Of a DNA stretch of 64,000 bases, positions 6,301-12,300 are shown one piece after another. Source of the stretch: Mimachlamys varia. Lineage: Eukaryota > Mollusca > Bivalvia > Pectinida > Pectinidae. A model generated the notes under the pieces. It worked only from the letters and a program-made list of their open reading frames with translations, was not told the origin of the DNA and made no database searches. The position numbers and the translations under genes were made by a program. The first letter of the stretch is position 1, and each line of letters starts with the position of its first letter. The stretch is taken from assembly GCA_947623455.1 (NCBI GenBank), contig OX392534.1, positions 41,793,426 through 41,857,425 on the forward strand, written 5' to 3'.

Positions 6301-9300
6301 GCTATTCACTTTGAACTGGCAATTTTTTTCCAGATACAGTCGAACTTTGTTTTCTCGAACTGGTTTAACTCAAAGACCCCGTTAAATTCGAAATATTTTG
6401 TCAGACCCAGCAAAACTTTACAACAGCATTTAAACTTGTATAACTTGAATACTCTGTTGACTTGAATGAAATTTTACCACTGTCATGTCGACTTCCAGAT
6501 AACGAAGTTCAATTGCATGCATGTATATTTGTCAGTATTGTAACATGTGAACAGTCGATCAGCTATCAACCTCTTTCTAACCTTACTGAGAACATGACCT
6601 ATTCTACATTCTGCAAGACAACTCTTAATTCTGATGTTCGAATAATATAGACCAGCATTTTGGTTTTAAACACAAGAGATGGATCAGATTGTTAACAATA
6701 TATAACTGACTTTTCTTTCAGATCAGATTGTAAACAAGGTACATGTATAACTGACTTATTATTCAGATCAGATTGTAAACAATATACTGTATAAATGACT
6801 TTTTATTCAGATCAGATTGTAAACAAGGTACATGTATAACTGACTTATTATTCAGATCAAATTGTAAACAATATACTGTATAACTGACTTTTCCTTCAGC
6901 GGTGATTCTGTTTGGAGAACCTGTGAGATGGGAGACCAATCTACAGATTATCATTGATGTCCTACTTACCAACGGCAAACCCATGTTTGCTCCGAGGGAG
7001 ATTCCGTACCCACATCTACCTGTACTTGCTTGCAATATGGATCTATTATGGATGGCGGAGGCATGCATGCCCAGGTAAGAATCGGTGCAGTAATGCTTAG
7101 TGATGTCAGGGTGACTCTAACAATGGATTGGTGATAGAGGGCCATACATACCCAGGTAAGAATCGGTGCAGTAATGCTTAGTGATGTCAGAGTGACTCTA
7201 ACAATGGATTGGTGATAGAGGGTCATACATACCCAGGTAAGAATCGGTGCAGTAATGCTTAGTGATGTCAGAGTGACTCTAACAATGGATTGGTGATAGA
7301 GGGTCATACATACCCAGGTAAGAATCGGTGCAGTAAAGCTTAGTGATGTCAGAGTGACTCTAACAATGGATTGGTGATAGAGGGTCATACATACCCAGGT
7401 AAGAATCGGTGCAGTAAAGCTTAGTGATGTCAGGGTGACTCTAACAATGGATTGGCGATAGAGGGTCATACATACCCAGGTAAGAATCGGTGCAGTAATG
7501 CTTAGTGATGTCAGAGTGACTCTAACAATGGATTGGTGATAGAGGGTCATACATACCCAGGTAAGAATCGGTGCAGTAATGCTTAGTGATGTCAGAGTGA
7601 CTCTAACAATGGATTGGTGATAGAGGGTCATACATACCTAGGTAAGAATCGGTGCAGTAAAGCTTAGTGATGTCACAGTGACTCTAACAATGGATTGGTG
7701 ATAGAGGGTCATACATACCCAGGTAAGAATCGGTGCAGTAAAGCTTAGTGATGTCACAGTGACTCTAACAATGGATTGGTGATAGAGGGCCATACATACC
7801 TAGGTAAGAATCGGTGCAGTAATGCTTAGTGATGTCAGAGTGACTCTAACAATGGATTGGTGATAGAGGGCCATACATACCCAGGTAAGAATCGGTGCAG
7901 TAATGCTTCGTGATGTCAGGGTGACTCTAACAATGGATTGGTGATAGAGGGTCATACATACCCAGGTAAGAATCGGTGCAGTAATGCTTCGTGATGTCAG
8001 GGTGACTCTAACAATGGATTGGTGATAGAGGGTCATACATACCCAGGTAAGAATCGGTGCAGTAATGCTTAGTGATGTCAGAGTGACTCTAACAATGGAT
8101 TGGTGATAGAGGGTCATACATACCCAGGTAAGAATCGGTGCAGTAATGCTTCGTGATGTCAGGGTGACTCTAACAATGGATTGGTGATAGAGGGTCATAC
8201 ATACCCAGGTAAGAATCGGTGCAGTAATGCTTAGTGATGTCAGGGTGACTCTAACAATGGATTGGTGATAGAGGGTCATACATACCCAGGTAAGAATCGG
8301 TGCAGTAATGCTTAGTGATGTCAGGGTGACTCTAACAATGGATTGGTGATAGAGGGTCATACATACCCAGGTAAGAATCGGTGCAGTAATGCTTAGTGAT
8401 GTCAGGGTGACTCTAACAATGGATTGGTGATAGAGGGTCATACATACCCAGGTAAGAATCGGTGCAGTAATGCTTAGTGATGTCAGAGTGACTCTAACAA
8501 TGGATTGGTGATAGAGGGCCATACATACCCAGGTAAGAATCGGTGCAGTAAAGCTTCGTGATGTCAGGGTGACTCTAACAATGGATTGGTGATAGAGGGT
8601 CATACATACCCAGGTAAGAATCTGTGCAGTAAAGCTTAGTGATGTCAGGGTGACTCTAACGATAGATTGGTGATAGAGGGTCATACATACCCAGGTAAGA
8701 ATCTGTGCAGTAAAGCTTAGTGATGTCACAGTGACTCTAACAATGGATTGGTGATAGAGGGTCATACATACCTAGGTAAGAATCGGTGCAGTAAAGCTTA
8801 GTGATGTCAGGGTGACTCTAACAATGGATTGGTGATAGAGGGTCATACATACCCAGGTAAGAATCTGTGCAGTAAAGCTTAGTGATGTCAGGGTGACTCT
8901 AACAATGGATTGGTGATAGAGGGTCATACATACCCAGGTAAGAATCTGTGCAGTAAAGCTTAGTGATGTCAGGGTGACTCTAACAATGGATTGGTGATAG
9001 AGGGCCGTACATACCCAGGTAAGAATCGGTGCAGTAAAGCTTAGTGATGTCACAGTGACTCTAACAATGGATTGGTGATAGAGGGCCATACATACCTAGG
9101 TAAGAATCGGTGCAGTAAAGCTTAGTGATGTCACAGTGACTCTAACAATGGATTGGTGATAGAGGGTCATACATACCCAGGTAAGAATCGGTGCAGTAAA
9201 GCTTAGTGATGTTAGAGTGACTCTAACAATGGATTGGTGATAGAGGGCCATACATACCCAGGTAAGAATCGGTGCAGTAAAGCTTAGTGATGTCAGAGTG

Positions 9301-12300
9301 ACTCTAACAATGGATTGGTGATAGAGGGCCCTACATACCCAGGTAAGAATCGGTGCAGTAAAGCTTAGTGATGTCAGGGTGACTCTAACAATGGATTGGT
9401 GATAGAGGGCCATACATACCCAGGTAAGAATCGGTGCAGTAAAGCTTAGTGATGTCAGAGTGACTCTAACAATGGATTGGTGATAGAGGGCCATACATAC
9501 CTAGGTAAGAATCGGTGCAGTAAAGCTTAGTGATGTCACAGTGACTCTAACAATGGATTGGTGATAGAGGGTCATACATACCCAGGTAAGAATCGGTGCA
9601 GTAAAGCTTAGTGATGTCAGAGTGACTCTTACAATGGATTGGTGATAGAGGGTCGTACATACCCAGGTAAGAATCGGTGCAGTAAAGCTTAGTGATGTCA
9701 GGGTGACTCTAACAATGGATTGGTGATAGAGGGCCGTACATACCCAGGTAAGAATCGGTGCAGTAAAGCTTAGTGATGTCACAGTGACTCTAACAATGGA
9801 TTGGTGATAGAGGGCCGTACATACCCAGGTAAGAATCGGTGCAGTAAAGCTTAGTGATGTCAGAGTGACTCTTACAATGGATTGGTGATAGAGGGTCATA
9901 CATACCCAGGTAAGAATCGGTGCAGTAAAGCTTAGTGATGTCAGGGTGACTCTAACAATGGATTGGTGATAGAGGGTCATACATACCCAGGTAAGAATCT
10001 GTGCAGTAAAGCTTAGTGATGTCAGGGTGACTCTAACAATGGATTGGTGATAGAGGGCCGTACATACCCAGGTAAGAATCGGTGCAGTAAAGCTTAGTGA
10101 TGTCACAGTGACTCTAACAATGGATTGGTGATAGAGGGCCATACATACCTAGGTAAGAATCGGTGCAGTAAAGCTTAGTGATGTCACAGTGACTCTAACA
10201 ATGGATTGGTGATAGAGGGTCATACATACCCAGGTAAGAATCGGTGCAGTAAAGCTTAGTGATGTTAGAGTGACTCTAACAATGGATTGGTGATAGAGGG
10301 CCATACATACCCAGGTAAGAATCGGTGCAGTAAAGCTTAGTGATGTCAGAGTGACTCTAACAATGGATTGGTGATAGAGGGCCCTACATACCCAGGTAAG
10401 AATCGGTGCAGTAAAGCTTAGTGATGTCAGGGTGACTCTAACAATGGATTGGTGATAGAGGGCCATACATACCCAGGTAAGAATCGGTGCAGTAAAGCTT
10501 AGTGATGTCAGAGTGACTCTAACAATGGATTGGTGATAGAGGGCCATACATACCTAGGTAAGAATCGGTGCAGTAAAGCTTAGTGATGTCACAGTGACTC
10601 TAACAATGGATTGGTGATAGAGGGTCATACATACCCAGGTAAGAATCGGTGCAGTAAAGCTTAGTGATGTCAGAGTGACTCTTACAATGGATTGGTGATA
10701 GAGGGTCATACATACCCAGGTAAGAATCGGTGCAGTAATGCTTAGTGATGTCAGAGTGACTCTTACAATGGATTGGTGATAGAGGGCCATACATACCCAG
10801 GTAATTAACCAAAAGAGTGTAGGAAGGATTCATTTGTTGTTTCAGTTCATTTGAAAACATTTTTTTGTTGACAAAAAAGTTCAGTTGATACCTATCATGT
10901 GTTTGACCATGCTTGATAATGAGAACATTTATTTGTTCACCTGATCATGTTTGATAATGAGAACATTTGTTTGACCATGCTTGAAAATGAGAACATTTGT
11001 TTGACCATGCTTGATAATGAGAACATTTGTTTGACCATGCTTGATAATGAAAACATTTGTTTGACCATGCTTGATAATGAGAACATTTGTTTGACCATCC
11101 TTGATAATGAGAACATTTATTTCTTCACTTGATCATGTTTGATAATGAGAACATTTGTTTGTTCACTTGATCATGTTTCATAATGAGAACATTTGTTTGA
11201 CCATGCTTGATAATGAGAACATTTGTTTGACCATGCTTGATAATGAAAACATTTGTTTGACCATCCTTGATAATGAGAACATTTATTTCTTCACTTGATC
11301 ATGTTTGATAATGAGAACATTTGTTTGTTCACTTGATCATGTTTCATAATGAGAACATTTGTTTGATCATGCTTGATAATGAGAACATTTGTTTGACCAT
11401 GCTTGATAATGAGAACATTTGTTTGACCATCCTTGATAATGAGAACATTTATTTCTTCACTTGATCATGTTTCATAATGAGAACATTTGTTTGATCATGC
11501 TTGATAATGAGAACATTTGTTTGATCATGCTTGATAATGAGAACATTTGTTTGTTTACTACAGGTTTGGACATGGATGTTTCCTCACCTGTTTAGAACAT
11601 CTATATATGGTGAGATTTCATATTTTGTTATATTTAAAACTAAGGTTTCTAGAGATAATACAAGATTAACAGATTACCACATACCGGTATACAATCATAA
11701 ATATTCAACGGGATACTACGTAAATATTTTAACAGGGTACTACATAAATATTTAATGGGGTACTAAATTTATATTTAACAGGGTACAGCATTAAAATTGG
11801 AAAACATTTTACAGGGTGCTATATAAATATTAAACAGGGTTCTACATAAATGTGGTTTACATCTAACAGGGTTCTACATAAATATAGTTAACATCTAACA
11901 GGATTCTACATAAATATAGTTAACATCTAACAGGATTCTACATAAATATAGTTAACATCTAACAGGATTCTACATAAATATAGTTAACATCTAACAGGGT
12001 TCTACATAAATATGGTTAACATTTAACAGCGTACTATGGGTAACTTCTAACAGGATTCTACATAAATATAGTTAACATCTAACAGGGTTCTACATAAATA
12101 TGGTTAACCTCTAACAGGGTTCTACATAAATATGGTTAACATTTAACAGCGTACTATGGGTAACTTCTAACAGGGTTTTGCATAAATATGGGTAACTTGT
12201 AACAGGGTTCTACATAAATATGGTTAACATCTAACAGGGTTCTACGTACATATGGGTAACTTCTAACAGGGTTCTACATGAATATGGGCAACCTATAACA

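Follow-up and report, generated by a model that had tools for sequence, protein, structure and literature searches.

In a stretch of 64,000 nucleotides from the pectinid bivalve Mimachlamys varia (GenBank assembly GCA_947623455.1, contig OX392534.1, positions 41,793,426 to 41,857,425 of the forward strand), intron 5 of the HDHD5/CECR5 gene opens with an 81-bp minisatellite that starts at the splice donor itself and repeats a strong donor in each of its 46 full units. We refer to the whole stretch as the window and give all coordinates in its own numbering. We consider it probable that this is a splice-site-seeded minisatellite, tolerated since exon definition takes the first donor. The idea that the array is simply tolerated because the outermost donor wins had been put forward in the original prediction, made from the letters alone, and we adopt it as the best reading, one that we infer from the geometry of the array and its effect on the reading frame.

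The array was located with Tandem Repeats Finder (TRF) and a pattern count at 7075–10804 on the plus strand, every full unit opening with GTAAGAATC and closing with CCCAG or CCTAG. As predicted, it begins at the first intron base, 7075, directly after the exon end at 7074, unit 1 opening with the real donor. An exact pattern search returned AGGTAAGAATC 46 times, with the GT running from 7075 to 10720 and a spacing of 81 bp in all 45 intervals. AG stands directly before GTAAGAATC in 46/46 units and is itself preceded by C in 39 and by T in seven (the units at 7639, 7801, 8773, 9097, 9502, 10150 and 10555). The earlier claim that CAG/GTAAGA (the slash marking the exon/intron boundary) recurs every 81 bp thus holds for 39 of the 46 units and fails for the seven with TAG, while that of about 47 near-identical donors stands for 46 full copies, the 47th being weaker (CAG/GTAATT at 10801, 8.9 bits). 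The TRF call, 7062–10804, gives 46.2 copies of 81 bp with 97% matches and 0% indels, a minisatellite in the ordinary sense of head-to-tail units of about 10–100 bp in many copies of high identity. The 46 units fall into 25 distinct types, with a mean pairwise identity of 96.2% and 13 variable positions among the 81. In unit 1, 3/81 positions depart from the consensus, and every one of these differences is found in other units as well, so that the likeness between units extends to the splice site itself; it is the exon end that has diverged. An exact 22-base unit pattern had no match in viral contigs, in a search from which the records of the window's own genome were possibly excluded. Long open stretches on the minus strand raised the possibility of a protein of 27-residue repeats, which was rejected because 7/46 units end in CTAG and so break its frame.

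The host gene was modelled in seven exons (4754–4960, 5599–5802, 6158–6197, 6900–7074, 11564–11609, 13520–13659 and 13947–14337), which together read through 400 codons to a single terminal stop; the model is without the first coding exon, which was not found, and exon numbers follow the original prediction. Its product matches TIGR01456 (CECR5) at 308.6 bits against a cut-off of 139.25 (E 3.7e-92), which places it in the CECR5 family, and aligns with yeast YKR070W (3kc2, E 7.6e-33), gap-free around MPR/FGHG, the exon 5/6 junction formed from donor 1. Exon 5 (6900–7074, plus strand) is 175 nt long and ends in phase AG/G, as judged from the in-frame model, the family match and the YKR070W alignment across the junction; the in-frame model and the same alignment define the 46-nt exon after intron 5 (11564–11609, plus strand). 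Elsewhere in this gene, the exon starting at 5599 opens with CAG/GTGAGT (5599–5604), a strong donor motif straight after the acceptor.

Among the five donors tried in frame (1, 2, 3, 10 and 46), donor 1 alone reads to the gene end. Donors 2, 3, 10 and 46, four tested of the 45 later full donors, lengthen exon 5 in frame to 256, 337, 904 and 3820 nt respectively, and each brings a stop at codon 210, a TAA immediately 3′ of the exon's split last codon AG/G. The predicted in-frame TAA right after the normal exon end is thus present for these four. With donor 2 the stop sits 77 nt upstream of the next junction, a distance sufficient for nonsense-mediated decay by the usual rule. By the family match and the YKR070W alignment, the conserved protein requires the donor 1 junction.

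Donor strength was scored with a matrix built from 21 donors taken from elsewhere in the window; these score from -1.3 to 12.2 bits themselves when each is left out in turn. The array donors reach 11.2 bits (the 39 with CAG) or 9.7 bits (the seven with TAG), inside the range of real donors, and on the full matrix 6/21 of the other donors reach 11.19. Predicted pairing with the U1 tail is -11.0 kcal/mol for the 39 and -9.4 for the seven, and the description of these donors as close to an ideal U1 target is borne out. Across the window, 58 plus-strand GT sites score at least 9.67 bits, 46 of them within the array. With its start at an exon donor and a strong donor in every unit, the array has the features of a donor-bearing minisatellite, use of donor 1 itself being judged from the frame. 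The donor 9-mer shows no extra conservation relative to the rest of the unit (1/9 versus 12/72 variable positions, Fisher P = 1.0), and selection on the decoy donors was rejected on this ground.

Each unit also carries a diverged copy of the end of exon 5, as had been claimed. Unit tails read CATACATACCCAG in 32 units, CATACATACCTAG in seven, CGTACATACCCAG in five and CCTACATACCCAG in two; the last 13 exon bases (7062–7074, plus strand) read CATGCATGCCCAG, and tail comparison gives 11/13 matches to the consensus. In a comparison of exon and unit tail that kept only the terminal CAG constant, none of 2000 shuffles reached the observed score over 40 bases (0.1% in another run), 11 over 60 and 62 over 81. 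Because the unit tail resembles the exon end beyond such shuffles, 13 bp of it securely, the seed most likely crossed the exon/intron junction, carrying at least 13 exon bases. AG/GT is accordingly found copied in 46/46 units together with exon sequence, the exon copy being firm for 13 bp only. As to later growth, units 24–31 are identical to units 37–44 (8938–10638, plus strand), a lag of 13 units or 1053 bp, and this run of eight, where the highest in 2000 shuffles was four, points to block amplification.

The course of events that we envisage would begin with a tandem duplication spanning the exon 5/intron 5 junction, in which 13 bp or more of the exon's end and the start of the intron would have become one 81-bp unit; the number of units would later have risen to 46, through one or more block steps of 13 units among others. 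The donor would have been multiplied in this way because the real donor sits within the unit. Units on the intron side would have remained or become alike, and the exon side, under coding selection, would have kept apart. The array would be tolerated because, under exon definition of a 175-nt exon, the spliceosome would pair the exon 5 acceptor with whichever donor lies closest, and exons lengthened by use of a later donor would bear a stop and should be cleared by nonsense-mediated decay. In short, we infer that the founding duplication crossed the junction, that donor 1 is the one used, that exon definition is the reason and that the decoys are passive. A similar process may lie behind the acceptor array of exon 5 and the donor array of a BORCS6-like gene, both described below.

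Several points weigh against this account. Where equal, strong donors compete, the intron-proximal one is reportedly often favoured, in work attributed to Reed and Maniatis in 1986 and to Eperon and colleagues in 1993, and such a preference would predict the failure of donor 1 here. Predicted folding also disfavours donor 1: its 9-mer accessibility, 0.007, is the lowest of the first 12 donors (the others lie between 0.021 and 0.062), and its GUAAGA 6-mer is the second-least accessible among them. An explanation of donor choice in which RNA structure masks the decoys was rejected because donor 1 itself has the least accessible 9-mer of these 12. Use of donor 1 is itself read from the frame. Past 13 bp the exon copy is not significant: when those 13 bases are kept constant, the observed score is matched in 227 of 2000 shuffles over 40 bases, in 261 over 60 and in 399 over 81. 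A copy of about 33 exon bases was rejected as an established result for this reason and is no more than suggested. Lastly, the tests of wider enrichment given below were framed after the arrays had been seen, with hand-made gene models and in a single 64-kb window.

Decoy donors about as strong as the real one would also suit a dosage device, in which some transcripts use later donors, gain the in-frame TAA and are degraded, copy number thereby tuning HDHD5 output, and the stop after donor 2 lies far enough from the next junction for decay by the rule given above. The decoys bear no sign of selection, however, and the same leak would be expected passively from any such array, and we think such a device unlikely. 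The original prediction had also raised the possibility of a decoy or store for the U1 small nuclear ribonucleoprotein (snRNP), to which may be added that U1 along the intron could protect against premature polyadenylation. The pairing energies and the array's share of the strong donor sites in the window speak for a role of this kind, but an abundant snRNP is unlikely to be titrated by a single locus, and the donors are under no extra constraint. Neither AATAAA nor ATTAAA, the only hexamers scanned, occurs in the 4489 bp of intron 5, the nearest being two ATTAAA in the following intron about 1.1 kb beyond the last full donor. Protection from polyadenylation was rejected on that ground, the suggestion that the array may influence premature polyadenylation receives little support, and we regard the U1-based readings together as improbable.

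Each 81-nt unit can also be read as a GT...CTCTAAC...AG module, and after a wrong choice recursive or repair splicing could then join donor 1 to the AG that closes a unit, restoring AG/G; AG lies directly 5′ of GT at 46/46 unit ends, and the exact exon end would be restored. These AGs score only -9.4 to -3.3, under all 22 real acceptors of the window (-1.9 to 19.1 with each left out in turn). In 36 units a further AG, internal at unit position 35, scores -5.6 to 4.0 and overlaps the weak real acceptors, but its use would leave the exon end unrestored. Recursive splicing was rejected as the principal explanation, and we hold it to be very improbable. An assembly artefact, whether an inflated copy number or a collapsed or misplaced array, would fit the identical recurrence of the eight-unit block 13 units on. 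We see only a slight chance of this, as the 25 distinct unit types and the diverged exon copy make it likely that the donor-linked array is real, even if its length may be off.

The donor array has a counterpart at the other edge of the same exon, and exon 5 is thus flanked on both sides by arrays of redundant splice sites. On the acceptor side, about 4.5 units of 45 bp, each with a T-rich tract and CAG, occupy 6701–6899 (plus strand, TRF), the last unit ending exactly at 6899, the real acceptor of exon 5. The first AG of each unit scores, in order, 4.3, 0.7, 1.9, 0.7 and 4.9 bits, the last and highest being the real acceptor, and extra AGs five bases further on score 2.5, 2.2 and 0.9. Of the five acceptors tested the final one alone is in frame; from each of the four upstream the reading runs into a stop codon at position 160 or 161. 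A second array of intron 5 (10896–11553, plus strand, TRF) ends 10 bp 5′ of the next exon's acceptor, and the two arrays of this intron cover 98% of its length. Arrays cover 89% of intron 6, most of which is occupied by a 32-bp array of about 50 units (11833–13448).

Other arrays of the window, which like the acceptor array had gone unremarked in the original prediction, also lie at splice sites. On the minus strand, a 30-bp array (44263–45535, TRF) starts at the donor of a gene identified as BORCS6-like by a Pfam BORCS6 match, the last exon base being 45532; the exon beside it falls outside the best Pfam match, and its end is placed from the reading frame. Beyond the true donor, 33 GT sites in the array reach 4 bits or more, among them 20 reading CAG/GTGATT (7.9 bits) and six reading CAG/GTGAGT (11.5 bits, equal to the true donor), so that most copies are without the +5 G, in contrast to HDHD5. 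In NOL9, a gene recognised by its CLP1_P domain match, TRF finds two 41-bp copies of an acceptor and exon start (55581–55662, plus strand); as read from the sequence, the second copy alone keeps the frame and the first would run into TAA.

Over 25 merged arrays, these post hoc tests find four that contain or abut a mapped exon boundary against 0.47 expected (P = 0.0015), and six within 20 bp of one against 0.83 (P = 0.0003). Without the HDHD5 array that prompted the analysis, 3/24 touch a boundary against 0.46 expected (P = 0.009), and when arrays are re-placed inside their own introns the figure is 4/9 against 0.96 (P = 0.008). The 47 boundaries were mapped by hand, including one GC donor of IMP4 and excluding one IMP4 donor that was not found and some ambiguous NOL9 acceptors; a NOL9 donor pattern occurring twice was taken at its first place, 55786 (exon end), and the NOL9 donor at 52673 is a choice among candidates. 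The motif CAGGT[AG]A is found in 4/25 array units, where pieces drawn at random from the window give 0.37 (P = 0.0004). The strength of this result depends on a motif chosen afterwards, since P is 0.0056 for two looser patterns and 0.08 for AGGT by itself.

Further observations were made by the way. A run of CAG/GTAA repeats in 28-bp and roughly 15-bp units (61006–61133) has no assigned exon next to it and lies between two coding stretches, near 58.8 kb and 62.25 kb, that look NOL9-like by eye; three tandem donor-like CAG/GTAA units lie at 59264–59301 on the minus strand. A pyrimidine-rich 16-bp array (52990–53060) ends 16 bp before a NOL9 acceptor, and TTACAGTAG stands twice in tandem at a likely NOL9 acceptor (56788–56805). 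The IMP4-like gene apparently has a GC donor, CGG/GCAAGT at 37616, judged by frame. Two open stretches at 59480–60466 on the minus strand resemble, by eye, a non-LTR (long terminal repeat) reverse transcriptase remnant. A tRNA-like call at 1610–1683 on the minus strand has an ambiguous anticodon; Rfam places no tRNA there at its gathering score, and no RNA family of any kind in the window.

Among known systems the minisatellite of human IFI6 (6-16), in which Turri, Cuin and Porter reportedly described multiple splice donors in 1995, would seem the closest in kind. There too the array reportedly starts at an exon donor with a donor within the units; the IFI6 unit is reported to be 12 bp, with its early donors used in frame, whereas in HDHD5 the unit is 81 bp, the copies number 46, reading past the true donor meets a stop, and the exon has an array at its acceptor as well. 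Recursive-splicing ratchet points share the juxtaposed AG/GT of the unit ends, but by the window's matrix the acceptor part in HDHD5 is too weak. Tandem duplication of AGGT-bearing segments has been proposed as a model of intron gain (Rogers 1989; Hellsten 2011; Zhu and Niu 2013), as related in PMC4974935, where the fission yeast cases are multi-copy with units of 24 bp. The likeness lies in a tandem duplication bearing AG/GT, and the difference in that HDHD5 has multiplied the donor of an existing intron, with no new intron evident and weak unit-end acceptors. In potato RdRp, according to the same paper, a tandem duplication across the intron 1/exon 2 boundary gave rise to a new intron; there too the duplicated stretch spans one boundary and copies splice signals, whereas HDHD5 has 46 copies at a donor. 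Relative to these systems the HDHD5 case may be seen as a variant of greater size, located at the donor of an intron already present and accompanied by an array at the acceptor.

The HDHD5 array is a natural experiment in donor choice: the spliceosome faces 46 near-equal donors, against two in constructs known from the literature, and the frame stop would report errors. We put forward only tentatively that minisatellites in this genome arise by preference at splice sites, with tandem duplications that include a whole donor or acceptor being those tolerated and amplified by introns, much intron growth starting at exon edges and some exons coming to lie between arrays of redundant splice sites. 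Should the pattern of the window be true genome-wide, the birth of minisatellites would be tied to splice sites, and this would provide a simple route for intron growth.

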